Below, one piece after another: positions 1 to 13,527 of a DNA stretch of 64,000 nt. Below the pieces are notes generated by a model. The model was not told the origin of the DNA. It did not search any database and worked only from the letters and a program-made list of their open reading frames with translations. Origin of the DNA: Desulfobacteraceae bacterium (lineage in GTDB: Bacteria > Desulfobacterota > Desulfobacteria > Desulfobacterales > Desulfosalsimonadaceae); contig JABZFM010000003.1 in assembly GCA_014237465.1 (NCBI GenBank), positions 124,001-188,000 on the forward strand, given 5' to 3'. The translations under genes and the position numbers were made by a program. Within the stretch, counting starts at the first letter, position 1. Every line of letters starts with the position of its first letter.

Positions 1-589
1 AAAATATAAAAATTACCGGGTCAAAAAGCCGCCGGTTTGACAGATATCCGGCTGTCAGGATCACGTTTCCGATGCTCGCTCCCCTAAGATCGAACGTCTC
101 GGATATTTTCTCCAAAAACAAGTAAAGGTGATTCCGAATAATTTTACGCATGGGGTCGACAATTATCACCACCATGGGATGCTTCCCTTTTGCCATGCTG
201 TATAGCTCTTCCATAAGAATGTGTTGATTTTTATCCTTCGGTAAGCGATAGGCAAAAAGCGAATAAATATCCGGATTCCCCTGAAAGCTCTGATCCGCCA
301 GCGCCATCAGGCGGTTGCGGATATCACCCACAGCCGGCATTTTAAATTTTTTCCTGAGTTCCGCCGAACTGCCACCGGAATCAAACGGTGTAATGATATG
401 TATTGAGTTCCAAGTATAATTGATAAGATGCTTACTCAAATCACGCAATGCCGTCCCACCACTAAAAAAGAGTAATTTTGGCCCCAATTCGGGATTTTTC
501 TTAAACCGGGCCACCTTCACGGGATCTGGAAGATTCACTGTTCGTGTGATTTGGAGCTTGATGGCTTTATAATCTTCCGTTAAATACAT
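1..589 (-). CDS. CofD-related protein of the GAK gene set (partial, C-terminus off window)
   Basis: An open frame runs from an ATG at 589 to the window edge, about 196 codons, with no stop. The translation holds the nucleotide-loop motif LLFFSGGTALRDLSKHL, then HIITPFDSGGSSAELRK, then MPAVGDIRNRLMALAD and, near the edge, GNVILTAGYLSNRRLFDPV. These are hallmarks of the CofD/YvcK family, whose best known member transfers phospholactate in coenzyme F420 synthesis. The gene lies 9 bp downstream of the HprK-like kinase gene and is the last visible gene of the operon. No F420 genes are nearby, so the family substrate is not implied. The match to the CofD-related member of the GAK set is from recalled family names; the real reaction is unknown. 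Confidence 0.85.
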   Translation of the reverse strand, partial: MYLTEDYKAIKLQITRTVNLPDPVKVARFKKNPELGPKLLFFSGGTALRDLSKHLINYTWNSIHIITPFDSGGSSAELRKKFKMPAVGDIRNRLMALADQSFQGNPDIYSLFAYRLPKDKNQHILMEELYSMAKGKHPMVVIIVDPMRKIIRNHLYLFLEKISETFDLRGASIGNVILTAGYLSNRRLFDPVIFIF

Positions 590-598
590 TTTGCCTGC

Positions 599-1696
599 TT
601 ATCCCGGATATCCATTATTTTTCAAAAAATCCATCCCGAATCGGGCCGCCTTGTCAAAATCAACTCCACCCTTTATTTCCACAACATCGCAATCCGAAAG
701 CATTTGGACATAATCGTCTTCCGTTGGCCTCACGGGATTTTCCCCGTTTGACGAATGATAAAACAGACCGGTTTCTTTCATAAACGCCCTCAGTAGATCG
801 TGCCGGTGGGCAATGTCTACTTTTCTAAAAACCGGCGGACCCGCATTTTCATTTTCCCAGCTTAATATGAACAGACCGTTCATCGGGGCACTCAACTGAA
901 AACGGCTGTTACGAAAATATACTTCCACAGGCGCATCATATTTTTTTTCCAGATACCAGAGGTCTTCCTTTGAAAGGGCTAAATATCGGAATTTCTCTTC
1001 ATCCGGAATAAGATTCTCCAGATATTCATTATTTAATGCAGTGCCCGGGTTGATACGCGGATGTTTGGCAACGCCAAACATGGTAAGTTCCTGATCCGAA
1101 TTCATGATCACGAGGCGATCATTGCTCACAAAATCAACCCCAAAAACCAGCATATGCAACGCCAGCGTTGATTTTCCCATACCGGAAAAACCCGCCATGG
1201 CGACACCGGTTTCCCCGAAGCAGACACCGGCGGCATGTCCCAAAAGCCCTCCCTGATGAAGCTTCCATTCAATATACCGGTTGTTGATAAAATTAATGAC
1301 CTGGTTGAAATTGGCGATACAGGGCCCGATGGCAAGGTTATCCCCGAGCCCGAAAACAAAATTCATTCCGGTTAACCGCTTTTTGACAATTCGACCATCC
1401 GTCAAATCAACGTATTCTTCTTTTATCTTTGTTTTGCCGGGATCCGGATTTTTAATGATAAAATCAAACGGAAAATCCGGAATATCCGCTTCATGAACCG
1501 TGATTTCAATATTCGGTCTGGAAGCGAAAATAACAAAAGATTTAAAATATTCTATCATATGTGCCTTGAGCTCATCAGAGTTCATTCTTACTGAAATGAC
1601 GCAATCCCCGAATTTCAGGCATATGGAAATATCCGCCGGATACTGTTTCCTGAATATATCATTCATCTCAATTCTGCTGGCGCTTTCAACCTGCAT
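599..1696 (-). CDS. HprK-related kinase B (GAK set)
   Basis: About 365 residues. A P-loop GFSGMGKST sits near residue 171-179 and is followed by DFVSNDRLVI, the arrangement seen in HPr kinase/phosphorylase, where the second motif contributes the acidic catalytic region. The N-terminal ~150 residues have no recognisable domain. The start is taken as ATG at 1696, inside the end of the ATP-grasp gene; a TTG at 1702 is also possible. Overlap upstream and a 9-bp gap downstream to the CofD-like gene point to translational coupling. The family suggests protein-serine or small-molecule phosphorylation, but no HPr or other PTS gene is visible, so the substrate is unknown and the amphi-Trp protein of the same operon is one candidate. 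Confidence 0.85.
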   Translation of the reverse strand: MQVESASRIEMNDIFRKQYPADISICLKFGDCVISVRMNSDELKAHMIEYFKSFVIFASRPNIEITVHEADIPDFPFDFIIKNPDPGKTKIKEEYVDLTDGRIVKKRLTGMNFVFGLGDNLAIGPCIANFNQVINFINNRYIEWKLHQGGLLGHAAGVCFGETGVAMAGFSGMGKSTLALHMLVFGVDFVSNDRLVIMNSDQELTMFGVAKHPRINPGTALNNEYLENLIPDEEKFRYLALSKEDLWYLEKKYDAPVEVYFRNSRFQLSAPMNGLFILSWENENAGPPVFRKVDIAHRHDLLRAFMKETGLFYHSSNGENPVRPTEDDYVQMLSDCDVVEIKGGVDFDKAARFGMDFLKNNGYPG

Positions 1697-2570
1697 GACC
1701 AATCCTTTTCAACACATAGTCAACATAGCATTTCGCCGGATCTATCGCTCTGGTTTCTAAAATCCCTCTAAATCCCCCAAACGCAGAAACTTCAAACACA
1801 AACGGGCCTTGATCGGTGATCGCCACATCCACACAGGTAAAATCCAGACCAAACAGATCCTGTGCCCTTTGGGCCAGTTCAATAATTTCCGGTGAGGGAT
1901 CATAGGGTGCGTATTTGCCTCCGGAAACCGTTGTTGTATTCCATGATCCATTATCCTGTTTTCGCCTTGCGTACGTGGTTAAATATTTCCCGCCAAGAAA
2001 GACAACCCCGAGATCCTGATCGTTGATATGAATTCTTTTCTGGATATAGATAATGGTATTTTCTTTTTTATATGCTTCAAGAACGGCTCTCGGTTCAACA
2101 TTGGTATTGACAAGGATCATCCCCCGGGCTTTTGACGTATACAACGGCTTTAAAACCGCCTCTTTATATTCCTTTATCGCAATCAGAGCTTCGTCAACGT
2201 CTTCTGTAATGGTTGTGGGCGGCATGGGGATCCCGTCTGATTTTAATGTCACCGTGCAGCTGAGCCTGTCCAACACGCGAATAATATTCTCCGGCGCGGA
2301 AAAAATTCGAACTCCCCGCATAGACAAAAAACGCAGAAGTTCCAGCCGATCCAGCAAATCCGGAGAATACCGGGCGCCAATCTTTTTGATGATCAATGCG
2401 TCCATTGACGCCAGATTTGATCCATTAAACCAGGCATCTCCGGTATTTAAATCAAGACGGACCTTACTCATTTCAACTATCATCCGTTTTCCGGTCATTT
2501 CCTCGGCCGCATCTGCCAGCTTTTCGGATGACCATCCTCCTTTGGTACCAATAATTGCAATTTCCGCCAT
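1686..2570 (-). CDS. ATP-grasp enzyme (GAK set), RimK-like
   Basis: A 294-residue ATP-grasp ligase-like protein. The N-terminal part (MAEIAIIGTKGGWSSEKL) is a pre-ATP-grasp Rossmann-like region. ATP-binding segments are AVLKPLYTSKARGMI near 137-151 and IYIQKRIH near 174-181. The metal-binding end is FVFEVSAFGGFRG near 257-269, where the usual EVN reads EVS. ATP-grasp enzymes join a carboxylate to an amine or thiol through an acyl-phosphate. It overlaps the kinase gene downstream and starts 23 bp after the PhoU-phosphotransferase gene. It most resembles the ATP-grasp member of the GAK set; the ligated substrate is unknown. Confidence 0.85.
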   Translation of the reverse strand: MAEIAIIGTKGGWSSEKLADAAEEMTGKRMIVEMSKVRLDLNTGDAWFNGSNLASMDALIIKKIGARYSPDLLDRLELLRFLSMRGVRIFSAPENIIRVLDRLSCTVTLKSDGIPMPPTTITEDVDEALIAIKEYKEAVLKPLYTSKARGMILVNTNVEPRAVLEAYKKENTIIYIQKRIHINDQDLGVVFLGGKYLTTYARRKQDNGSWNTTTVSGGKYAPYDPSPEIIELAQRAQDLFGLDFTCVDVAITDQGPFVFEVSAFGGFRGILETRAIDPAKCYVDYVLKRIGHAG

Positions 2571-2593
2571 ATACGATTCCTTATGTCATTTTT

Positions 2594-4243
2594 TTACATA
2601 AACAGTATTTCTGTGGGGAGTTTGAACGACTTCATGGATTTAGGACGATGATCCAGAATCTTTTCCATCAGAAAATGGGCTCTTAAAAACATCTCCATGG
2701 CAAATTCAAAGTTCAGCTCAAACCGTGTGGAGGTATAAAATGATCTGACGAGCGCAAACGCCATCCGAATATCGAATGTGTTATCCTTATGATCGTCAGC
2801 AAATGCGCGCGTATAATAAAAAAAGTCTTCAATGATATGATTCAAGCGTTCCCTTACCACCGGTTCAAAAACAGGGATTCTAAAATTGGAAATAAGAAAT
2901 ACGGACACATCCTGAATATAATCAAATTCACGCGACCGGTTCAAATCGATAAAGTGAATCCGCTGTTGGATATGATCATAAAGGACGTTGCTGACATTAA
3001 AATCACCATGAATAAGAACCGAGAACGGCGCACTGATATTTCTTTCAAGCTGGTGACACTTTTTTAAAAGTTCTGCGGAAGATGATATCTTTTTTTTCCC
3101 CATCACCGATGATGCGCGATGAGAATCCGGATGAACGCGCAGAATGTCTTCCCACCGGTCAAAAATCTGTTGGATATAGTTCATCGCCACGGGTTTTTTT
3201 TCAAGTGTGCTGCACCAGACCTCACTTAAGGTCTGTTTTAAAACAAAGAGGATGTTATCAATGGGATCCGTATCCGAAGTTAATATAATCTCATCAAGGG
3301 TGCATCCGGGAAGATATTCAACAAGCAGGGATGCATTGTCACCGTCTTCATTGTACCCGTAGATATCCGCAACCAATCCGCTAAATGTCTTCTGCCATCT
3401 TTCAAGGTTTGATTTTTCCCTTGATATTTTTTTGATGGTACCTTCCTTAAAGATGCTGCTCTGAACATCCGGGACACCGTCATCACGTTGTTTTTTTTCA
3501 ACACGCCCGATACGGCATCCGGAACGTGTTCCCCAGATGGATTGAAAATCAATTTCATGGATGGGCTCTCTGATACCGGCAACATCCAGTGTAGACTGGA
3601 GGGCCTGAAACTGTTCGATTTTAATTTTCTCCCCGATAATATAAAAAATCAATGCCTCTCCGATGTTTAAAAGCGCATCCCCGATCCGTTCAAGATAACG
3701 GAAAATAAATAAAATCGTTATGGGTTCTCTGGGATCATACGCTTTTCTGACATCAAACATCAACTGGTCAAAATTCTTCTTATACATTTGATCCAGCGCT
3801 AATTCTGATTTACAGATCGCCAACGCGCCCGTCAGATCGGCCGCCTTGAGCACAGGCAGCACCTTTGCAATTCCTTCTTTAATAGCGTCAATCATCTCTT
3901 CGTACCCATAATTCCGAATGAGATTGACATCACTTAAATATCCCATCTGTCGTGTGATATTGACACAAAAATCTGCGATTCTTTCAAAGTTGACGCAAAT
4001 GATCTGAATGGAACGTATGCGGTTGATTTCTTTTTTTCGGAGGGCTTTATCAGAATGAATTTTTGAAAAGCATTTGTTTTCAATAATGATTTTTAAATTA
4101 TCAATATAGTCATCTTTTGTAATGATTCTTTCATAAAGGTTTCTGGAAGGGTGCTTAATAAAACGGGAAAGCGAAATGACCTGGTTTTCAACTTCTAAAA
4201 TGATGAATTTTAAATTTTCTTCCAGACCTTCAAAAGTAATCAT
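2594..4243 (-). CDS. PhoU domain fused to an aminoglycoside/choline kinase-like phosphotransferase
   Basis: 549 residues with two halves. Residues about 1-220 form an all-helical PhoU-type domain with the paired signature ERIADFCVNI near 75-90 and ERIGDALLNIGEAL near 200-215. Residues about 240-549 resemble the APH/choline kinase fold: the catalytic loop HGDFNVSNVLYD (near 412) is followed by a metal-binding HFIDLNRS. PhoU proteins bind metal clusters and signal phosphate sufficiency to PstSCAB-PhoR, while APH-fold enzymes phosphorylate hydroxyl groups of small molecules. The fusion suggests a kinase activity gated by a phosphate-status domain; that is inference. The gene follows the amphi-Trp gene by only 3 bp. 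A separate, ordinary phoU is present at 12835-13527. Confidence 0.8.
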   Translation of the reverse strand: MITFEGLEENLKFIILEVENQVISLSRFIKHPSRNLYERIITKDDYIDNLKIIIENKCFSKIHSDKALRKKEINRIRSIQIICVNFERIADFCVNITRQMGYLSDVNLIRNYGYEEMIDAIKEGIAKVLPVLKAADLTGALAICKSELALDQMYKKNFDQLMFDVRKAYDPREPITILFIFRYLERIGDALLNIGEALIFYIIGEKIKIEQFQALQSTLDVAGIREPIHEIDFQSIWGTRSGCRIGRVEKKQRDDGVPDVQSSIFKEGTIKKISREKSNLERWQKTFSGLVADIYGYNEDGDNASLLVEYLPGCTLDEIILTSDTDPIDNILFVLKQTLSEVWCSTLEKKPVAMNYIQQIFDRWEDILRVHPDSHRASSVMGKKKISSSAELLKKCHQLERNISAPFSVLIHGDFNVSNVLYDHIQQRIHFIDLNRSREFDYIQDVSVFLISNFRIPVFEPVVRERLNHIIEDFFYYTRAFADDHKDNTFDIRMAFALVRSFYTSTRFELNFEFAMEMFLRAHFLMEKILDHRPKSMKSFKLPTEILFM

Positions 4244-4246
4244 TTT

Positions 4247-4522
4247 TTAACTGCTGATCCGAATTTTTTTTTGGGTACTTTTCACCGCAACCTTCGGTTC
4301 TTTCCAGGAGATTTTGATGTCGAGCTGATTTTTTGTATTATCTTTTCTTTTTGCTTTCACATGAAACCGCAGCAGTGCATTCGGATGTAATGTAATTTCT
4401 TCTGTCTCAGATGAAAGAACGATCTTGCCATTTCCAAATCCTTCCACCAGAGATTCCAGAAAGGCTTTTATACTTGTTGCATCCTGCAGGGAATCAAATT
4501 CAAATTTTTGCTCATTGGCCAT
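4247..4522 (-). CDS. amphi-Trp domain protein (GAK set)
   Basis: A small protein of about 91 residues. The core KFEFDSLQDATSIKAFLESL, then GFGNGKIVLSSETEEITLHP and a final ISWKEP, fits the amphi-Trp domain, a short unit with an alternating hydrophobic/charged strand and a conserved Trp. The start is ATG at 4522 because it has a good GGGAGG site about 8 bases upstream and fits the domain boundary; a longer frame to 4609 would overlap the preceding gene. There is no signal peptide. Its function is unknown. Its size and conserved association with a kinase and an ATP-grasp enzyme make it a possible carrier or substrate protein, which is inference. Confidence 0.8.
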   Translation of the reverse strand: MANEQKFEFDSLQDATSIKAFLESLVEGFGNGKIVLSSETEEITLHPNALLRFHVKAKRKDNTKNQLDIKISWKEPKVAVKSTQKKIRISS

Positions 4523-4550
4523 AAGGAACCTCCCGATCCATTCCACACCT

Positions 4551-5711
4551 CTATTGAGACAGGCGTTGACGATATTCTGAAATGACTTTTCGCTTATCCG
4601 TATTTGCACAAATCAATTGCTTACAAATATTTAAATCCTCCCAGGCGGGTTGCAGGCCGATCTCACGTAACGCTTTTTCCGGTTTCTGCAAAGACGGATC
4701 TTTCGTTTTTTCACCCATATGGGTATCATCACCCATAAAAATGAGTAGCTGTTTTTGACCGTGATTTCGGGTTTTATTCTTTCCATCCAAAACTTTAATT
4801 AAAAATTCCGTATACCGCCTTGACTGAGGATTCCAGACCTCATACCCATCCACATCATATTCCGCCAGCAGAATCGGCCAGAACTGTTCAGGATGTGGGA
4901 CAACAATACCGCCTTTTAAAGACCGAACCTCTTCTATGACTTCGGATGTTCGGTAGAAAAATTTTTTTGAAAAGTTGGCTTTCACGATTTTTTTAACCGC
5001 CGTGATAAAGGTTTGTACGCGATTGATCAGATGATCACCGTATGTTGGACACAACTCATCAAAAAAATTCCGAAGGATTTTATTTTTAATGGCGGTTTTG
5101 GGAAGATGGTCCATATGGCGATCTAAAAGATCATGAATTTTACGAACATAAACCGTCACAAACCGTATTAAAGATTCATCCGTTCCGGTTTCACAGGCAG
5201 CCTGGCTGATTCTTTCATCAATGGGTTTTATGATCGTATGAATATAATCAAACAATTGCGATGAACGGTATTTAAACGTGTGTGCCAGCATGGATTTTAA
5301 AACATCCGCGTTTTCAATATGTTCATTTTTAAAATGCAACAACAGTTGGACTTTCTGGTTAAACCCGCTGGAATAACAGTCCATTTCCACGCCGGTAAAA
5401 TCTTCGTATGTCATCAGTTGGTTATGTTGTGTGGGGATGATCAGTGATTCAGTTGTATTTGGAAACATGGCGGCAATACGACGGGTGTTCAATTCCATGG
5501 GAATAAACTCCGGATGCCAGTGAATGGCAAGCAGGGCTCTCTCTCTGGGATATATTTCCGATGGTGTGACAATCTGATTGATCTGGTCAGACGTCAATTC
5601 ATGGGAAGTAATTTTAAAAAAAATTGCTTCATCGGAATCGGTTATTTCTTCAGAAATATTTTCAGGCACCGTAAAACGAAATCGATCTGCTGAATTTCTT
5701 ACAAGTTTCAT
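4551..5711 (-). CDS. PHP-like metal-dependent hydrolase, first gene of the GAK operon
   Basis: 386 residues, not a member of a named family that I recognise with certainty. Motifs of a PHP (polymerase and histidinol phosphatase) fold can be seen: HWHPE at 64-68 as the first HxH, a Glu/Asp pair GVEMDC at 107-112, PHPE at 272-275 followed by DGYEVWNP near 288-295, and GDDTH at 327-331 in the place of the usual terminal DxH motif. A long helical insert (about 130-260) interrupts the barrel. PHP enzymes hydrolyse phosphoesters with two or three metal ions. It opens the operon, 28 bp before amphi-Trp. Phosphoesterase activity is inferred from the motifs only. Confidence 0.6.
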   Translation of the reverse strand: MKLVRNSADRFRFTVPENISEEITDSDEAIFFKITSHELTSDQINQIVTPSEIYPRERALLAIHWHPEFIPMELNTRRIAAMFPNTTESLIIPTQHNQLMTYEDFTGVEMDCYSSGFNQKVQLLLHFKNEHIENADVLKSMLAHTFKYRSSQLFDYIHTIIKPIDERISQAACETGTDESLIRFVTVYVRKIHDLLDRHMDHLPKTAIKNKILRNFFDELCPTYGDHLINRVQTFITAVKKIVKANFSKKFFYRTSEVIEEVRSLKGGIVVPHPEQFWPILLAEYDVDGYEVWNPQSRRYTEFLIKVLDGKNKTRNHGQKQLLIFMGDDTHMGEKTKDPSLQKPEKALREIGLQPAWEDLNICKQLICANTDKRKVISEYRQRLSQ

Positions 5712-5878
5712 AATGACCTTTATGCTGAATAATTATTATACCAAGCCTGTAAAATTAATATTGGTAGCACAATAAAATGAGCATCACGTTAAAACCCGGT
5801 GTCACCATGAATAAAAAATATATAATGCAATGAGATTAGGCATAAAATTATTAATATATAACAATAATATTAAGATTT

Positions 5879-5911
5879 TGTTACGTTACTGTTACGTTAC
5901 TGTTACATATA
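5879..5911. promoter_or_regulatory. three tandem 11-bp Pho-box-like repeats upstream of the GAK operon
   Basis: Three consecutive 11-bp units, TGTTACGTTAC, TGTTACGTTAC and TGTTACATATA, fill this stretch exactly. PhoB binds direct repeats of 11 bp whose first half reads TGTCA or similar, so spacing and core agree. The array lies in the 274-bp gap between pstA and the PHP-like gene, 168 bp before that gene's start. The caveat is orientation: the TGTTAC cores read on the plus strand, whereas the GAK genes lie on the minus strand. No terminator is obvious in the rest of the gap. Confidence 0.5.
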
Positions 5912-5985
5912 ACTTTTATTTCGTTTATGATTTGACTGCCGGACGACAAGGCTCAGATGATGGCTAAATAAAAGTTCAGGCTGGG

Positions 5986-6870
5986 CTATCTGTTTCTGCG
6001 TAATTTGGAACGGTATATGATAGCTATCAGGTTCATTCCCAAAACCAGCGTGATCAAAACCAGTGCCGTGCCATATTGCAGATGACGAGTTTGCTCAATT
6101 TCCGTTCCGGCGGTTGCCAGCACATAGATATGGTATGGCAAGGCCATCACCTGGTCTAAAATCGATGAAGGCAACCTGGTTGTATAAAAAACCGCTGCGG
6201 TAAACATGATAGCGGCTGTTTCACCAGCCGCCCTGCTCAATGCCAGAATCCCCCCGGTGAGTATGGATGGTAAAGCGGCCGGCAGCACCACACGATATAT
6301 GGTCTGCCATTTTGTTGCGCCCAGCCCCAGAGATGCCTCCCGATATGTATCCGGCACCGCCCGCAGTGCTTCTTCGGCAGTCCCGATGATCACAGGAAGG
6401 GTTAAAAAACCAAGCGTTAATGATCCGGACAAAATACTGACCCCCAGTTTCATCCATGTCACAAACAGGGCCAACCCAAACAGGCCGAATACAACGGACG
6501 GGACACCGGCCAGGTTATTAATTCCAAACCGAATTGTCCGAAGGGCGATCCCCTGTTTCGCATATTCATTCAAGTAAATGGCAGATGCAATGCCCAGCGG
6601 AAACGCCACGATCATCGCGCCGACACTTAAGTACACGGTGCCGATAATACAAGGCAGAATACCACCCTTGGTCATGGAATCAATGGGTGACTGGGTTAAA
6701 AACGTCCAGTTGATGGCTTGCCATCCATTTTTTATCAGAAAAAATATAACAATAAACAGGGCCAGCGCGTTGATTATCGCCGCAATGCGAAATAAAACAA
6801 ACATCGCAACCTGCGAATATTTTCGTCGGCCTACGGTGTGTTGTGTCAGCGAGATTGTTGATTGACTCAA
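5986..6870 (-). CDS. pstA: phosphate ABC transporter permease PstA
   Basis: 294 residues, usual PstA length, with six predicted membrane helices and the permease EAA-type loop near EASLGLGATKWQTIYRVVLP. Paired with PstC it forms the inner-membrane channel through which phosphate from PstS enters, powered by PstB. The best start is a TTG at 6870 with an AAAGGA site 7 bases before it; no in-frame ATG fits the N-terminal helix. It follows pstC by 68 bp that hold an inverted repeat. pstB is not here but beyond phoR, so the transporter genes are split between two divergent transcripts. Confidence 0.95.
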   Translation of the reverse strand: MSQSTISLTQHTVGRRKYSQVAMFVLFRIAAIINALALFIVIFFLIKNGWQAINWTFLTQSPIDSMTKGGILPCIIGTVYLSVGAMIVAFPLGIASAIYLNEYAKQGIALRTIRFGINNLAGVPSVVFGLFGLALFVTWMKLGVSILSGSLTLGFLTLPVIIGTAEEALRAVPDTYREASLGLGATKWQTIYRVVLPAALPSILTGGILALSRAAGETAAIMFTAAVFYTTRLPSSILDQVMALPYHIYVLATAGTEIEQTRHLQYGTALVLITLVLGMNLIAIIYRSKLRRNR

Positions 6871-6892: not shown

Positions 6893-6942
6893 TTAGGTTG
6901 AAGGTTGAAGACTGAAGGAAAAGCCTTCCACCTTCTACCTAA
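6893..6942. repeat. heptameric TTCARCC-type repeat, inverted copy
   Basis: Left arm TTAGGTTGAAGGTTGAAG and right arm CTTCCACCTTCTACCTAA form an imperfect inverted repeat that includes the pstC stop codon. The same 7-base unit recurs at 7855, 28013, 40376 and 45369. It could form a hairpin between pstC and pstA. Confidence 0.6.
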
Positions 6943-7832
6943 AGTGTTGCCGCCCCCACCTGCCGGTGTTTGTTGGATATATAATCTGCGATAAAATTAA
7001 AAAATAACGTAAAAATAAACAAAACCATGCCCGTGGCAAACAACGCATAATAATGATCACCGCGAAACGGCGCTTCGCCCATTTCCGCCGCAATACTTGC
7101 CGGCATGGGCCGGACCGGATCAAAAATGGATGACGGCAACATTGCCGCACCGCCGGCCACCATTAAGACCACCATGGTCTCTCCGATTGCACGGGACATA
7201 CCGAGAATAACAGCGGTGCTCAATCCGGACAAAGACGCCGGGATAACAACCCGGACAATGCTCTCCCAGTGGGTTGCCCCAAGCGCCAGGGACGCTTCTT
7301 TTAATTCAATGGGGACGCTTGTAATGGCATCTTCGGAAATAGTACATATGGTAGGGACCGACATAAACGCCAGCATTAACGACGCGTTAAAGAGGTTTAA
7401 TCCGGTTGGGATATCAAAAGCATCCTGTAAAAACGGGGCCACAATCACCATGCCGAAAAAACCGATCACAACGGACGGCAATGACGCCAGAAGTTCCACC
7501 AGCGGTTTTGCAATCTCTTTAACCCTTGTTGATGCAATTTCCGCCAGATAAATGGCCGTCATGATACCCAACGGAATAGCTACGGACGCGGAACACAGTG
7601 TAACTAAAAGTGAAGCAATGATCAGCGGGAAAATCCCGAAATCCGGCGGGTCTGATGTCGGGTACCAGTATTTACCCAAAAAAAAGTCTTTTACTGAAAC
7701 CTTCTCGAAAATCGGCACCCCTTCCCTGACCAGAAAAAATAAAATCATGCAGAGAATGGCAATGGATACGAATGCAAATAAAAAAAATATATACCGGATG
7801 AGCGTATCTTTTAGTTGACGTCGGTCTTCCAT
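6939..7832 (-). CDS. pstC: phosphate ABC transporter permease PstC
   Basis: 297 residues with six predicted membrane helices. The EAA loop KEASLALGATHWESIVRVV is near residues 180-200. It partners PstA in the high-affinity phosphate importer. The ATG at 7832 has an AGGTG site close upstream. About 285 bp separate it from pstS and hold two repeats, so pstS may be expressed above the permease genes, a common arrangement for periplasmic binding proteins. Confidence 0.95.
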   Translation of the reverse strand: MEDRRQLKDTLIRYIFFLFAFVSIAILCMILFFLVREGVPIFEKVSVKDFFLGKYWYPTSDPPDFGIFPLIIASLLVTLCSASVAIPLGIMTAIYLAEIASTRVKEIAKPLVELLASLPSVVIGFFGMVIVAPFLQDAFDIPTGLNLFNASLMLAFMSVPTICTISEDAITSVPIELKEASLALGATHWESIVRVVIPASLSGLSTAVILGMSRAIGETMVVLMVAGGAAMLPSSIFDPVRPMPASIAAEMGEAPFRGDHYYALFATGMVLFIFTLFFNFIADYISNKHRQVGAATL

Positions 7833-7982: not shown

Positions 7983-8118
7983 AATGGCAAAGTAAAAAGT
8001 CTCAAGTTCAAGGCGCGCAAATCCTGAGGAGCGAGGCGTACGAATGTACGTTGAGTGACGAAGGATGCAGCGCAACCCGAATCATTAAACCGGAAATTGG
8101 ACTTTTTACGAAGCCATT
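7983..8118 (-). repeat. palindromic element family A, copy 1, at the end of pstS
   Basis: Terminal arms AATGGCAAAGTAAAAAGTC and ACTTTTTACGAAGCCATT pair imperfectly. The interior has AAGGCGCGCAAATCCTGAGGA, a central mini-stem GTACGAATGTAC, then GACGAAGGATGCAGCGC. Read on the pstS strand it begins as TAATGGCTTCG, so the element's first bases include the pstS stop codon. Other copies: 32099, 38527, 52948 and 53218. Confidence 0.75.
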
Positions 8119-8935
8119 AGTACAGCGGGACATATCCGGCTTCAGCAACAATCTTCTGTCCTTTGGCGGGATGCATCACAAAATTGATAAATTTCAACGT
8201 GGTGCCGGTGGGCCATCCTTTGGTGAACATATACAGCACTCGACTGATGGGATAGGCTGCGGTCATAGCGTTTTCAGCCGTTGCTTTTACACCGTCAACC
8301 GTTAATGCTTTTAAATCCTTATTTAAATAACTTAACCCAACATATCCCACCGCATAGGAGTTTTTGGCCACAGCCTGTGCCACCGCACCGTTTGATGCCT
8401 GGAGCAGGGCACCGGGGAAAACTCTTTCTTTTTTCATGACCAGTTTATTCCATACTTCATACGTACCGGAAGACGTATCCCGTGAAATTACAACGATTTT
8501 TTTATCCGACCCGCCGATTTCCTTCCAGTTCTTGATTTTTCCCATGTAAATGTCTTTAAGCTGGTCAATGGTTAGATTTTTTATGGGATTTGACAGATGC
8601 ACCACAGGAACGATACAATCGTAAGCAACACCGAACGGAACCGGATAAACACCTTTTTCAACAGCCAGGGCGACTTCCTTATCCTTAATAAAACGGGATG
8701 CATCGGCAATATCCGTTGTGCCGTCAATAATTGCCTTGATTCCGTTACCGGAGCCACCGCCGGAAACAGATACATTCACATCCGGATAAATCTTCATGAA
8801 TGCTTCCGCCGCTTTCTGGGCAATGGGAAGTACGGTTGTGGACCCTTTAATTTCCAAGGTTTCGGCCCATGCGCCGGCTGTGAGAGAAAACACACTTAAT
8901 ATTACGATCAATACTTTTAAAAAATTCATCTTCAT
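8117..8935 (-). CDS. pstS: phosphate-binding periplasmic protein PstS
   Basis: 272 residues. A signal peptide (about 24 residues, ending AGAWA) is followed by LEIKGSTTVLPIAQKAAEAF and SGGGSGNGIKAIIDG, the phosphate-binding loops of PstS, and by SRDTSSGTYEVW. It binds phosphate in the periplasm and hands it to PstCA. The ATG at 8935 has a GGAGG site. It faces phoB across a 334-bp region with Pho-box candidates for both genes. The short-chain form is usual for PstS of sulfate reducers. Confidence 0.95.
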   Translation of the reverse strand: MKMNFLKVLIVILSVFSLTAGAWAETLEIKGSTTVLPIAQKAAEAFMKIYPDVNVSVSGGGSGNGIKAIIDGTTDIADASRFIKDKEVALAVEKGVYPVPFGVAYDCIVPVVHLSNPIKNLTIDQLKDIYMGKIKNWKEIGGSDKKIVVISRDTSSGTYEVWNKLVMKKERVFPGALLQASNGAVAQAVAKNSYAVGYVGLSYLNKDLKALTVDGVKATAENAMTAAYPISRVLYMFTKGWPTGTTLKFINFVMHPAKGQKIVAEAGYVPLY

Positions 8936-9124
8936 TGGTTAAATCCTCCTTTTTTTGTGATAAAGCATAAACAATTCTGTTTTATTAAAATTTTAAAACA
9001 ACCGATCAAAACAAATCCCTTTCAATAAATTAGATAACGCATTAAAATAAAAAATTATTTTCTTCTGTTAATTGTTGCTGCTTGCTTTAGATGACAAATG
9101 ATAAATATAAAATTTGACGATTGT

Positions 9125-9152
9125 GTTACAAAACACCGAAAATATAATGACA
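9125..9152 (-). promoter_or_regulatory. candidate Pho box for pstS (degenerate)
   Basis: On the minus strand TGTCAT (9152-9147) and TGTAAC (9130-9125) are 22 bp apart, two turns of the 11-bp Pho spacing, with a degenerate unit between them. The position, about 190 bp before pstS in the pstS-phoB divergent region, fits a PhoB-controlled promoter, but the middle repeat is poor. Confidence 0.4.
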
Positions 9153-9171
9153 TTTTGAGCGAGCCCTTATC

Positions 9172-9199
9172 TGTCACAAAAATGTCACGCAGTCTTCAT
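9172..9199 (+). promoter_or_regulatory. Pho box upstream of phoB
   Basis: TGTCAC at 9172 and TGTCAC at 9183 are exactly 11 bp apart, with a weaker third unit CTTCAT at 9194. The orientation is correct for phoB, whose start is about 70 bp downstream. This fits the known autoregulation of phoBR by PhoB under phosphate limitation. Confidence 0.75.
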
Positions 9200-9269: not shown

Positions 9270-9953
9270 ATGACAAAAACGATTCTAATCGTTGAAGATG
9301 AAACAGACATACTCCATCTCGTGGAATATCATTTAAAAGCCGAGGGTTACACTGTTTTAGCCGCACAGGATGGCATTAAAGGGCTTGATCTGGCTATTGA
9401 ACAGTTGCCTGACCTCATCGTTCTGGACCTGATGCTGCCCGGTATGGATGGATTGGAGGTCTGCAAGGCATTAAAGCGAAATTCAAAAACAGAAAATATC
9501 CCGGTTGTGATGCTGACTGCAAAAGGCGAAGAAGTGGACCGGATCGTTGGATTGGAACTGGGCGCTGATGACTATATTGTCAAACCGTTTTCCCCCCGTG
9601 AACTTACGTTACGGATACGTGCGATCCTTAAACGTTTTGACAGAGAGCCGGCAGAAGAAACACAGCTGCAATATCTGGATCTTAAAATTGACCTTGACAG
9701 CTATAAAGTATGGATTGAAGAAAATGAAATATCCCTTACGGTTACAGAATTCAACCTCCTGCTCGAACTGGTACAGAACCAGGGAAGAGTACGCACCCGG
9801 GATCAGCTATTAGATCGCGTCTGGGGATATCAATTTGACGGTTATGCCCGAACAGTGGATACGCATGTTCGAAGACTCCGAAAGAAAATCGGTTCATATG
9901 CAGATGCTATTGAAACGGTTCGGGGAATTGGATATCGATTTAAGGAAGAGTAA
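9270..9953 (+). CDS. phoB: phosphate response regulator PhoB (OmpR family)
   Basis: 227 residues. The receiver domain (1-~118) has an acidic cluster ILIVEDETDI, the phospho-acceptor region LIVLDLMLPGMDG with Asp near 54, and a conserved Lys in MLTAKG. The OmpR-type winged helix (~130-227) includes TVTEFNLLLELV and RTVDTHVRRLRKKIG. It is directly followed by phoR with no gap, and preceded by a Pho box. With pst, phoR and phoU around it, the PhoB assignment is secure. Confidence 0.95.
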   Translation: MTKTILIVEDETDILHLVEYHLKAEGYTVLAAQDGIKGLDLAIEQLPDLIVLDLMLPGMDGLEVCKALKRNSKTENIPVVMLTAKGEEVDRIVGLELGADDYIVKPFSPRELTLRIRAILKRFDREPAEETQLQYLDLKIDLDSYKVWIEENEISLTVTEFNLLLELVQNQGRVRTRDQLLDRVWGYQFDGYARTVDTHVRRLRKKIGSYADAIETVRGIGYRFKEE

Positions 9954-11720
9954 ATGAAATCTATTCGTTTCAGAACACGGCTGCTGCTCTCTTTCTGGTT
10001 CATATTATTATTGGCGCTATGCCTCCCTGCCTATTATATATTTCAGACACTTGAAAAGGATATTTACAAAGAAGCAAAGGCCAATGCACTGACCCAGCTT
10101 AATTTTGTCCACTGGCTTTTAGAGGAAAAGCCGGCCTTTGAAGATAACCTGACATTTGATCGATGGTGTAAAAAGCTGGGAAAACAGTTGAAGTATCGAA
10201 TCACTGTCATTGCCGCCGGAGGCAGGGTCATTGCAGATTCCGATGTCCCTGAAAACCGAATACCCTTACTGGACAACCATGCGGACCGGGAAGAAATTAT
10301 CGGCGCGAGGAAACTGGGGCAGGCGTCGAGTATACGATACAGCATCACGCTTAAACGAAAACTGATTTACGCGGCAAAAAACATTAACCTGCCGAATGCA
10401 CCGTCCGGTGTGCTCAGAGTGGCGATCCCATTATCAACGGTTGAAACACGACTCTCCTCTTTTGCACACAGATTCTGGGGCATTTTATTTGTAATTTTTA
10501 TTATTACAACATTGCTCAGTTTTATTCTGGCAAGAAAACTTGAATCACCTATCATTCAAATTATTCAGGCTGCTACTGCCATTGGTGACGGCAATTATGA
10601 AAAACAACTTGATATTGAAACCAACACTGAATTTTCCCGGCTTTCAATATGCATTAATGACATGGCTGATAAAATTCAACTAAATGTTGCAATGATAACC
10701 GGGCAAAAACAGGAATTGGAAGCTGTTCTTGAAGGGATGCAGGAAGGCGTCATGCTGCTGGATGAAAATGGAAAAATCAAAGCCACCAACCAGGCGCTGA
10801 CCTGGATCGCGAAATGTGTGCCCTCGTGTATCGGACACCGCCCTATGGAAGTGTTTCTCAATCCTGAAATCCAGGATGCATGTAATGAAATCTTAAACGA
10901 AAAGGAACATCTGAGGCTGAAAGTACCGATGCCTAATGATACCGTATATGAAGTCAACCTGGTAAAAATACCGGACGGCGGCGCGGTTGTCGTTTTCCAT
11001 GATATCAGTGAACTGGTCCGACTAGAAAAAGTCCGGCAGGACTTTGTTGCCAATGTCTCCCATGAACTCCGGACACCACTTACTTCAATAAAAGGGTATG
11101 CAGAGACGCTGCTGGACGAAAAGTTCAGGGCAACTGATCAGGCGGATTCCTTTGTCAACACCATTGTAAAAAATGCAAACCAGATGTCAAATGTTGTCAG
11201 TGATCTCCTTGAGCTGACAAAATTACAACAAAAACAGCAGAAGCCGGATCAATTATTTCCGGTAAACGCAACCACATGTTTTAATTCTGCCATGGAAACC
11301 TGTATGCCCATGATAAAAGAAAAAAATATTCGTATTACCAATCACTTAAATGATTCCATAATCGTGGTGGCTGAAGAAAACGCTCTCATCCAGATATTTA
11401 GAAACCTTTTAGATAATGCCATCCGGCACAGTCCACCGGAAACGAAAATTTTAGTTTTTGCACAAAAAAAGGATAATAATATTGTCCTCGGGATACAGGA
11501 TGAAGGCACCGGTATTCCGCTTCGGCATCAAAAACGGATATTTGAACGGTTTTACCGGGTGGACAAGGAAAGAAGCCGGGCATCCGGCGGGACAGGACTC
11601 GGTCTTTCCATTTGCCGGAATGCAGTCCAGAAAATGGGAGGCAACATCTGGGTTAAAAGCCCCCCGGATGATCAATCAAAGGGGTCTGTTTTTTATTTTT
11701 CCCTTAGGGTTCGGAAATAA
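9954..11720 (+). CDS. phoR: phosphate sensor histidine kinase PhoR
   Basis: 588 residues. An N-terminal membrane helix, an extracytoplasmic loop (~30-170), a second helix near 172-190, a HAMP linker, a PAS region (~255-350), HisKA with the phospho-acceptor H370 in VSHELRTPL, and HATPase_c with NLLDNAIRH, DEGTGIP and GGTGLGLSI. It phosphorylates PhoB when phosphate is scarce. The long periplasmic loop is larger than in enterobacterial PhoR but common in deltaproteobacteria. The start codon abuts the phoB stop. Confidence 0.93.
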   Translation: MKSIRFRTRLLLSFWFILLLALCLPAYYIFQTLEKDIYKEAKANALTQLNFVHWLLEEKPAFEDNLTFDRWCKKLGKQLKYRITVIAAGGRVIADSDVPENRIPLLDNHADREEIIGARKLGQASSIRYSITLKRKLIYAAKNINLPNAPSGVLRVAIPLSTVETRLSSFAHRFWGILFVIFIITTLLSFILARKLESPIIQIIQAATAIGDGNYEKQLDIETNTEFSRLSICINDMADKIQLNVAMITGQKQELEAVLEGMQEGVMLLDENGKIKATNQALTWIAKCVPSCIGHRPMEVFLNPEIQDACNEILNEKEHLRLKVPMPNDTVYEVNLVKIPDGGAVVVFHDISELVRLEKVRQDFVANVSHELRTPLTSIKGYAETLLDEKFRATDQADSFVNTIVKNANQMSNVVSDLLELTKLQQKQQKPDQLFPVNATTCFNSAMETCMPMIKEKNIRITNHLNDSIIVVAEENALIQIFRNLLDNAIRHSPPETKILVFAQKKDNNIVLGIQDEGTGIPLRHQKRIFERFYRVDKERSRASGGTGLGLSICRNAVQKMGGNIWVKSPPDDQSKGSVFYFSLRVRK

Positions 11721-11926: not shown

Positions 11927-12688
11927 ATGGAGAATTCACAAAAATTTATCACTCAACACCTTAATTTTTATTATGGAGAATTTAAGGCGCTGGAAGATAT
12001 TTCAATTACAATCAATCAAAACCAGGTTTCCGCTTTAATCGGGCCTTCCGGATGTGGTAAAAGCACTTTTTTAAGATGCCTAAACCGAATGAATGATTTG
12101 ATTCCGGGGATCCGTGTGGAAGGAATGATCCGGCTTGACGGCGAAGATATCTATGCGCCGAAGGTTGATGTGGTTAACTTGAGACGCCGGGTGGGAATGG
12201 TTTTTCAAAAACCGAACCCGTTTCCCAAAACCATTTTTGAAAACGTGGCATACGGCCTTCGCGTTAATGGCATCAAAGACAAAAAGGCCTTAAAACAACG
12301 GGTTGAAAAAAGCCTTAAACAGGCTGCTTTGTGGGATGAGGTCAAAGACCGGATCAATGAGTCTGCTTTGGGTTTATCAGGAGGGCAGCAGCAGCGACTC
12401 TGCATTGCGCGGGCGCTTGCAGTTGAACCGGATGTGGTATTAATGGATGAGCCGGCCTCGGCGCTTGATCCAATAGCTACACAAAAAATTGAAGATTTAA
12501 TCCATGAATTGAAAGAAAACTTTACCATTATTATTGTTACCCATAATATGCAACAGGCAGCCAGAGTATCGGACATTACCGCATTTTTCTATATGGGTAA
12601 ACTGATTGAAACCGGTGAGACTGAAACATTATTTACCCGACCGTCACTTCAGCAAACTGAAGATTATATCACTGGCCGCTTCGGCTAA
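11927..12688 (+). CDS. pstB: phosphate ABC transporter ATP-binding protein PstB
   Basis: 253 residues. Walker [10 protein letters not shown] near 39-47, signature [15 protein letters not shown] near 149-163, Walker [14 protein letters not shown], and a switch His in [12 protein letters not shown]. It hydrolyses ATP to drive phosphate import through PstCA. It lies with phoBR and phoU rather than with pstSCA. The ATG at 11927 has an AAGGA site. It is followed directly by a palindromic element and then phoU. Confidence 0.95.
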
Positions 12689-12834: not shown

Positions 12835-13527
12835 ATGGAACGACATTTTATAAAAGAACTTGATGATCTGAAAATGACAATATTGAACATGGCGGCATTG
12901 ACCCGGCGGGCGCTTGAAAAAGCAACACATTCTTATTTAAACAGGGATGACAAGCTGGCACAAGCAGTAATTAAGGGTGATAAAGAGATCAATGATCTTG
13001 AGCTTCAGGTAGACAGTATATCACTCAAACTGCTTGCCCTTGAGCAACCCATGGCCGGAGACCTGCGATTTATTATCGGGACAACAAAAATCAGCAAGGA
13101 ATTGGAGCGGATCGCAGACCAGGCGGTGAATATTGCGGAACGTTCTCTTTTTTTATGCCAGCATCCTCCCCTCAACCATATTCCTGCAATGGAACGATTA
13201 ATGGAAATCGCTGACAATATGCTTGATGAGGCCATATCATCATTTGTAAATGAAAATTTTAAACAGGCCATAAAAATCCGCCAAATGGATGATATGGCGG
13301 ATCAGGCGACCCTTGAAGTTTTGCAAACACTCATTGAATATATGGTTAAAAGCACACCGGCCACAGAAAAAAGAATTTTAAATACCCGAAGATCAATCCA
13401 AACCATTATCATATCCAGGTGCCTGGAACGTGTGGGGGACCTTGCAACCAATATCGGCGAGCATGTGGCGTTTATCGTGGAAGGGGTTAATATAAAGCAT
13501 CAGAAAATAGACTTTGACTTTTCTTGA
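12835..13527 (+). CDS. phoU: phosphate signalling protein PhoU
   Basis: 230 residues, two three-helix repeats with ISKELERIADQAVNIAER near 85-102 and SRCLERVGDLATNIGEH near 195-212, the metal-binding motifs of PhoU. It turns off PhoR signalling and limits PstSCAB when phosphate is sufficient. The ATG at 12835 has an AAGGAG site. Its last 28 bp overlap the convergent pseudouridine synthase gene. Confidence 0.95.
   Translation: MERHFIKELDDLKMTILNMAALTRRALEKATHSYLNRDDKLAQAVIKGDKEINDLELQVDSISLKLLALEQPMAGDLRFIIGTTKISKELERIADQAVNIAERSLFLCQHPPLNHIPAMERLMEIADNMLDEAISSFVNENFKQAIKIRQMDDMADQATLEVLQTLIEYMVKSTPATEKRILNTRRSIQTIIISRCLERVGDLATNIGEHVAFIVEGVNIKHQKIDFDFS

Follow-up and report, generated by a model that had tools for sequence, protein, structure and literature searches.

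What does a bacterium do with its GAK genes, and when does it call on them? We took up this question in a 64,000-nucleotide stretch of DNA from a Desulfobacteraceae bacterium (contig JABZFM010000003.1, positions 124,001 to 188,000), hereafter the window, from a genome of 5.09 Mb. A GAK operon lies on the minus strand at window positions 1-5912 and encodes a PHP-like protein, an amphi-Trp protein, a PhoU-APH kinase fusion, grasp_GAK, HprK_rel_B and CofD_rel_GAK, with pst and pho genes next door. The system already has a name in NCBIfam, and this operon holds typical representatives of it; we found no paper on GAK in the open-licence PubMed Central (PMC) literature.

We propose that, at low phosphate, PhoB would bind an array of 11-bp repeats upstream of the operon and turn it on in parallel with pstSCA, and that the GAK products would form a make-and-break cycle of phospho-modification. 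We put the probability of this explanation as a whole at roughly 0.5. Taken by itself, control of the operon by PhoB is very probable, judging from the promoter sequences described below. As far as the literature was searched, the link to phosphate, two extra core proteins, a YvcK-like reading of one named member and a swap of phosphoesterases between lineages are new.

The operon and its members

The features of the operon are as follows, from its promoter onward.

5880-5912, no strand assigned: Pho-box array of 11-bp repeats, about 170-200 nucleotides (nt) upstream of the PHP start codon
4551-5711, minus strand: PHP-superfamily phosphoesterase, first gene of the operon, as predicted with AlphaFold2 and Foldseek
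4247-4522, minus strand: amphi-Trp protein, 91 amino acids from its ATG, with C-terminus IRISS (TIGR04354)
2594-4243, minus strand: fusion of a PhoU domain and an APH-like kinase (Pfam PhoU 71.7 bits, APH 26.3 bits)
1686-2570, minus strand: GAK ATP-grasp ligase of RimK/LysX/MptN type (TIGR04356, 440.8 bits, cut-off 300)
599-1702, minus strand: HprK-related kinase B (TIGR04355, 482.8 bits, cut-off 200)
1-589, minus strand: 5' part of the gene for the GAK CofD-like (YvcK/GlmR-like) protein (TIGR04357)

The earlier note, made from the letters of this DNA, had described six tightly spaced minus-strand GAK genes. These are present, and their families pass NCBIfam or Pfam cut-offs except for the PHP-like protein, whose assignment is based on structure. 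The genes are separated by 3-28 nt or overlap slightly, provided that the amphi-Trp gene starts at the ATG at 4522; a longer alternative reading frame opens at a GTG at 4609. That protein scores 71.4-72.5 bits with TIGR04354 (cut-off 31). In the fusion, the PhoU half falls short of TIGR02135 (78.8 bits, cut-off 130) and lies above the Pfam PhoU cut-off, while the kinase half exceeds the APH cut-off of 23.2 bits. The six genes hold for the window; the operon itself runs on to the left. The CofD-like gene extends past the window edge to -628 (G000:C58:123372), encodes 405 amino acids at full length, and scores 545.8 bits as a full gene in the extended locus (L002). Its window part scores 259 bits, below the cut-off of 340, because the gene is truncated at base 1. 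To the left of it, beyond the window, is a second amphi-Trp gene (53.5 bits in L002).

Measured against the GAK system as defined by NCBIfam (TIGR04354-TIGR04358), grasp_GAK, HprK_rel_B, CofD_rel_GAK and amphi-Trp are all above curated cut-offs, and the gene order agrees with that of other GAK loci. The PhoU-kinase and PHP proteins are nearly as constant as the named members, yet they match no NCBIfam GAK model. Among the best 80 of 482 relatives, the closest named one is a Desulfobacteraceae metagenome-assembled genome (MAG) whose ATP-grasp protein is 80% identical.

Pho boxes at GAK promoters

The array reads GTTACGTTACT-GTTACGTTACT-GTTACATATAA. Its 11-bp repeats had been recognised before, and they stand, with their end moved from 5911 to 5912. 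The exact pattern GTTAC-N6-GTTAC-N6-GTTAC occurs once in the window and once in the genome. With up to three mismatches, the window holds five matches, all inside the array, against 0.6 expected by shuffling. With up to two mismatches, the genome holds 5 matches against 13 for a reversed control pattern, and genome-wide only the exactness of the pattern is special. Read on the sense strand, the array is GTAAC every 11 bp, a unit shared with this genome's pstS box, GTAACACAATCGTCAA, and it scores 15.1 (p 0.01) with a Pho-box model trained on pstS promoters. A Desulfovibrio vulgaris PhoB site proven by gel shift, AGGTTACAGCATAGTTAC, has the form GTTAC-N6-GTTAC (available part of PMC6456213), and the D. 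vulgaris PhoB consensus is a (c/t)GT(n)AC repeat (available part of PMC3333781). The operon here resembles a Pho regulon member in having 11-bp direct repeats of this type at its promoter, with pstSCA and phoBR adjoining; its PhoB site is predicted from sequence, whereas the D. vulgaris site comes from gel shift.

We compared this promoter with those of other GAK loci. Candidates were drawn from the best 80 of 482 relatives, from two genome surveys and from the window; removing 20 duplicates and L133, which has no grasp gene, from 118 left 97 non-redundant loci, whose neighbourhood genes were predicted with a codon-based caller. Gene order is very constant among them, with contig ends truncating some: XXXCH (50 of 97), PHP-like (78), amphi-Trp (84), PhoU-kinase with both halves (85), grasp (97), HprK_B (87), CofD-like (64), then amphi-Trp again. 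In the surveys, 38 of 389 genomes sampled from this class contain HprK_B; of 369 genomes of Gammaproteobacteria, the class to which Onishia belongs, 13 contain the GAK ATP-grasp. Desulfamplus magnetovallimortis (L065, L071) and a Desulfocurvus MAG (L087, L094) have two GAK loci each.

The Pho-box model spans 29 nt and was trained solely on 29 of 30 pstS promoters (L172, a partial one, was omitted). It was applied to 65 of the 97 loci, the rest having their operon start cut off or a first gene that was unrecognised. Significance was taken from dinucleotide shuffles, 100 per GAK promoter and 40 per control promoter in the first test and 40 each in a repeat. At p ≤0.05 the model matched 35 of 65 GAK promoters, compared with 64 of 419 control promoters from the same loci (Fisher p 8e-11), and scores of at least 14 were reached by 14/65 and 10/419, respectively. 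Equal shuffle numbers gave 37/65 against 18/130, with 130 of the 419 control promoters used. When the box units were re-spaced to 8, 9, 10, 12, 13 or 14 bp, only 5, 4, 1, 5, 7 and 4 of the 65 GAK promoters matched. Grouping relatives at 80% identity left 24 of 47 groups with a match by median, and grouping at 70% left 15 of 32. Boxes are present at 9 of 11 GAK promoters with Pst genes nearby and at 26 of 54 without them. The match at one promoter (L057) is not box-like in appearance.

Linkage to Pst genes

The neighbouring pstSCA-phoBR-pstB-phoU genes, reported before, are all there.

5986-6870, minus strand: pstA, directly upstream of GAK on the same strand (TIGR00974, 299 bits)
6939-7832, minus strand: pstC (TIGR02138, 288 bits)
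8117-8935, minus strand: pstS (TIGR02136, 281 bits)
9113-9141, minus strand: Pho box of pstS, a member of the training set (L146)
9171-9188, plus strand: Pho box of phoB, CTGTCAC-N4-TGTCAC type, from sequence; best consensus match in the E. coli-type box test
9270-9953, plus strand: phoB (TIGR02154, 262 bits, below the cut-off of 296)
9954-11720, plus strand: phoR-like histidine kinase (TIGR02966, 274 bits, cut-off 334; PnpS, 349 bits, cut-off 400)
11927-12688, plus strand: pstB (TIGR00972, 419 bits)
12835-13527, plus strand: stand-alone phoU (TIGR02135, 177 bits)

PstS, PstC, PstA, PstB and PhoU pass their family cut-offs, and PhoB and PhoR stay short of theirs. We found no terminator-like site between pstA and GAK, and read-through from pstSCA might also contribute to GAK expression.

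The earlier note held that a lack of enrichment of Pho genes beside GAK loci would speak against a phosphate link. For Pst, there is enrichment: of 30 genomes of the class, 6 have a PstB gene that passes its family cut-off no more than 10 kb from the ATP-grasp gene, where copy number and genome size predict about 0.14. The 30 come from the 38 HprK_B-positive genomes of the class, the other eight being mostly short contigs; the six linked genomes (G000, G007, G057, G110, G233, G241) belong to three families. In the DNA fetched for the 97 loci, Pst or stand-alone PhoU genes accompany GAK in 14, and in 11 of these they are on its strand and upstream of it. Such linkage greatly exceeds chance but concerns a minority of loci. 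Other phosphate-related neighbours are a PHO4-type phosphate permease just upstream of GAK in L078 and PhnD-like binding proteins in four loci (one confirmed by Pfam).

Relatives that lack GAK keep the order RluB-phoU-pstB-phoR-phoB / pstSCA. In L192, from the same family, pstSCA is followed by a short match to the HD gene, and in L195, from the same genus, by the PHP-glycosyltransferase gene, both oriented as here. L191, also of the same genus, has a short HD-gene match behind a GGDEF gene, and L193 and L194 are too short or show neither flank. Since the flanks are kept without it, GAK looks like a block that is present or absent behind pstA.

On the far side of the operon, L002 continues after the second amphi-Trp gene with an opposite-strand HD-domain gene and then a PHP-GT4 glycosyltransferase fusion (L002:6398-8878; the PHP part was seen by eye, and Pfam reports the glycosyltransferase only). 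Further left of the window are type VI secretion-like genes (L002:1-2344), presumably TssL, TssK and TssJ from their sequence features. Between these and the GAK flank sits a small helix-turn-helix gene with a RelE-like gene (L002:5345-5968), by eye a probable toxin-antitoxin pair. Elsewhere, an ArsC or low-molecular-weight phosphatase-like gene, again judged by eye, is near GAK in 12 of 97 loci (L109, L118 and L024 among them).

Predicted enzymes of the proposed cycle

The kinases and the PHP enzyme have intact signatures. In the HprK-like kinase, the previously reported P-loop GFSGMGKST is indeed present, and H156, K177, S178, D195 and R196 are found in 27 of 27 aligned proteins. HprK_B has the P-loop region, the preceding His and the following Asp-Arg in common with HPr kinase/phosphorylase; the match is limited to about 50-70 residues, however, and the N- and C-terminal parts of HprK_B are long and family-specific. 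By profile, the PhoU-kinase fusion matches PhoU structure 4q25 (E 2e-20) and APH(3') (E 6e-5). His412, Asp414, Asn416, Asn419 and Asp433 are present in 27/27 aligned fusions, so that the APH-type catalytic HGDxxxxN and metal Asp are intact (His412, Asp414, Asn419, Asp433).

The ATP-grasp protein matches RimK and LysX structures by profile, with MptN among the NCBIfam models. The match to this group covers the full length, and the active-site Lys, Asp and Glu are shared, with Lys141, Asp248 and Glu260 invariant in the alignment. In place of EVNxxP, however, it has EVSAFGGF, and the RimK-type Mg ligand set of Asp, Glu and Asn is incomplete.

The PHP-like protein matched nothing in NCBIfam at E 0.01 or in Pfam at E 0.1, and its sequence profile drew no PDB chain below E 2. 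Its AlphaFold2 model (pLDDT 89.6) led Foldseek to the PHP phosphoesterases 3e0f, RNase AM 9etk and 2yb1, and its HxH, His96, His273 and DxH are found in 25/25 aligned proteins, residues that we take, by motif, to be the metal ligands. Foldseek E-values to TrpH and RNase AM are 2e-5 to 2e-3 and the metal-site residues are invariant, but TM-scores are just 0.35-0.53 and the model has a large helical middle part. With this predicted fold and the metal-binding His/Asp/Glu set present, we assign the protein to the PHP superfamily.

The name "CofD-like" had suggested phospho-transfer, and the label holds insofar as Pfam CofD, a family spanning both CofD and YvcK types, matches the protein. A profile of the CofD-like proteins, however, matched five UPF0052/YvcK structures (E 1e-32 to 1e-17, including 2ppv, 2o2z and 2hzb) and no chain of a CofD structure at E up to 1. 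By sequence profile, then, "CofD-like" here means YvcK/GlmR-like, and we dropped, as a leading idea, that the protein hands a phospho-acid to a cofactor in the manner of CofD. Listeria GlmR makes UDP-N-acetylglucosamine (UDP-GlcNAc; available part of PMC10128056). Using the residues given there, placed by motif and by alignment with 2o2z, we found that the GAK proteins retain the first catalytic Asp (Asp40, 22/22) while the second is Ser (Asp41, 22/22), and that Asn198 is kept in 18/22. With the uridyltransferase residue set incomplete, GlmR-like uridyltransfer is weakened as a candidate activity.

Amphi-Trp and XXXCH proteins

The part that these enzymes would act on may be the amphi-Trp protein. 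We favour it as the carrier because it is small, has no known catalytic domain, is present in 84 of 97 loci, often in several small copies per locus, and tends, in the upstream copies, toward I-x-I-S/T tails. Ser or Thr ends 41 of 76 upstream amphi-Trp proteins, compared with 49 of 693 other locus proteins; the C-terminal Ser, being enriched, is kept as a lead for a phosphosite, and there may be a link to lasso-peptide kinases.

XXXCH (TIGR04358) gave no match in this genome at E up to 1, and is found in 50 of 97 loci elsewhere, which makes it an accessory rather than an obligatory part. Its predicted fold (for example L036:6290-6820) combines an amphi-Trp-like beta-alpha-beta-beta unit with a four-helix bundle. 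The C-terminal bundle resembles cytochrome c' in the models (Foldseek E 0.03; none <0.001). XXXCH lacks one of the haem Cys residues of CxxCH, however, and would be no more than a possible haem protein.

Exchange of phosphoesterases between lineages

None of the 17 alpha- and gammaproteobacterial GAK loci has the PHP protein. On the strand of the grasp gene, they have instead a histidine phosphatase (14/17), a metallophosphoesterase (13/17) or a NUDIX-type protein (9/17). PhoU-kinase matches are found in 16 of the 17 (missing in the short L184), with Pfam PhoU confirmed in the one protein scanned. One NUDIX kind has an N-terminal stretch that weakly matches histidine phosphatase in L095 and not in L128, and one kind is also found in L061, L128 and L129. 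A phosphoesterase is thus present in most GAK loci, and unrelated phosphoesterase folds in one place suggest that some phosphate ester or anhydride has to be hydrolysed. The swap lends indirect support to the earlier suggestion that GAK could build and break a phosphorylated conjugate; the CofD-like label gives little reason to expect a phospho-transferase.

Phosphate control, by comparison, does not reach all GAK loci. The proposed link to phosphate is borne out by Pho boxes at GAK promoters, by Pst adjacency and by a PhoU domain in a core protein (85/97), and it has little backing in the Alpha- and Gammaproteobacteria. There, an E. coli-type Pho consensus was found at p 0.05 in 3 of 14 promoters and 11 had no recognisable box, as judged by a plain consensus count that is cruder than the trained model; L102, L183 (too short) and L184 (no PhoU-kinase) were omitted. 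These promoters rule out universal phosphate control of GAK, and such control may be limited to the lineage of sulfate reducers and those neighbouring it. In the marine or saline Rhodobacterales L176, L177 and L178, GAK is plasmid-borne, on replicons of 111-449 kb that typing classes as non-mobilizable.

A proposed make-and-break cycle and its alternatives

In the cycle that we propose, the PhoU half of the fusion would sense phosphate status or dock to the Pst machinery and so gate the APH-like kinase. Amphi-Trp proteins, or a metabolite that they carry, would be the substrates of two further enzymes, the HprK-like kinase and the RimK-like ATP-grasp ligase. A nucleotide-linked ligand would be bound or activated by the YvcK-like protein, and the PHP enzyme would take off phosphate and reset the cycle. 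Considered as chemistry alone, a carrier cycle on amphi-Trp proteins is a tentative suggestion, possible but rather doubtful. The most specific version, in which GAK is an unrecognised branch of phosphate homeostasis with PhoB-induced amphi-Trp carrier chemistry, a PhoU-kinase gate and lineage-specific phosphoesterases, and in which the HprK-like kinase phosphorylates the amphi-Trp I-x-I-S-S tail and the RimK-like ligase extends it, is distinctly unlikely to be right in all its parts at once.

Several observations count against our proposal, in addition to the alpha- and gammaproteobacterial promoters. Boxes were missing from 30 of the 65 GAK promoters, the model matched the antisense strand of 15/65, and control promoters matched at 15%, so some single matches are due to chance. 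Neither Pst nor stand-alone PhoU genes were seen in the fetched DNA of 83/97 loci (many stretches are short), and the available text on D. vulgaris PhoB targets, as distinct from the target tables, names no GAK gene. On the side of chemistry, Ser occupies the RimK metal-binding Asn position of the ATP-grasp protein in 19/19, so ligase activity may be altered. The C-terminal Ser of amphi-Trp is far from invariant, and Ser or Thr is the last residue of 20 of 63 CofD-like proteins as well. In L179 and L189, PHP, histidine phosphatase, metallophosphoesterase and NUDIX genes were all undetected, and L047, L076, L077 and L118 showed no PHP gene within 6-9 kb of upstream DNA.

GAK could instead be a signalling relay for phosphate status and no biosynthetic cycle. 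In that case the two kinases would phosphorylate amphi-Trp and XXXCH proteins as regulatory outputs, which the phosphoesterases would return to their starting state, and the ATP-grasp and YvcK-like proteins would be relics that sense ligands. Relatives of PhoU, YvcK and HprK act as regulators elsewhere (for GlmR, according to abstracts), amphi-Trp often has more than one small copy per locus, and the alterations of the ATP-grasp metal ligand (19/19) and of the second GlmR Asp (22/22) fit relics. We nevertheless regard a relay as unlikely: the invariant ATP-grasp Lys141, Asp248 and Glu260, together with the kinase motifs, point to enzymes, and, by their matches, the seven families found in at least half of the loci include no DNA-binding family.

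Alternatively, GAK could help to replace phosphorus-containing envelope parts, such as lipids or cell-wall polymers, at low phosphate. D. alaskensis swaps more than 90% of its phospholipids for glycolipids and ornithine lipids under phosphate limitation (available part of PMC5193443), the CofD-like protein is related to YvcK/GlmR, and the PHP-glycosyltransferase fusion is close to GAK in 15/97 loci, including this one. In NCBIfam that fusion comes closest to N-acetylglucosaminyl phosphatidylglycerol synthase (137 bits, below the cut-off of 480), followed by other glycosyltransferases. However, 13 of the 15 loci carry the glycosyltransferase on the opposite strand, and the neighbourhood clustering did not show it in the fetched DNA of the other 82 loci. 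The NCBIfam and Pfam scans matched none of the GAK proteins to a lipid enzyme, and by inspection, with no predictor applied, we noticed no membrane protein among the core proteins. We consider envelope replacement improbable.

A more trivial account would make the Pst neighbourhood and the boxes incidental, with a generic GAK module inserted behind pstA and read through. The relatives L192 and L195, which keep pstSCA with the HD or PHP-glycosyltransferase side and lack GAK, are as this account predicts, as are the missing terminator-like site and the many loci without Pst neighbours; the boxes at 26 of 54 GAK promoters without Pst nearby, seen with 11-bp spacing only, make it quite improbable.

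The least probable of these readings, a long shot, sees in GAK a means to store or mobilise phosphorus by way of a compound of polyphosphate-like or dinucleoside-polyphosphate type. The NUDIX-type proteins (9/17 alpha/gamma loci; one kind in L061, L128 and L129) would suit it, but inspection by eye of the 40 largest neighbour clusters showed no polyphosphate kinase, CHAD or CYTH protein (no profile search was made), and induction at low phosphate fits mobilisation, not storage.

Implications

PhoB control with a make-and-break phospho-modification cycle remains the reading that we prefer. It adds two core parts, the PhoU-kinase and the PHP enzyme, to the GAK system and corrects the "CofD" reading of a third. 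The tie to phosphate starvation gives GAK a physiological condition under which to seek a phenotype or a metabolite, and with it cultured sulfate reducers that have GAK become practical subjects in which to look for its function.

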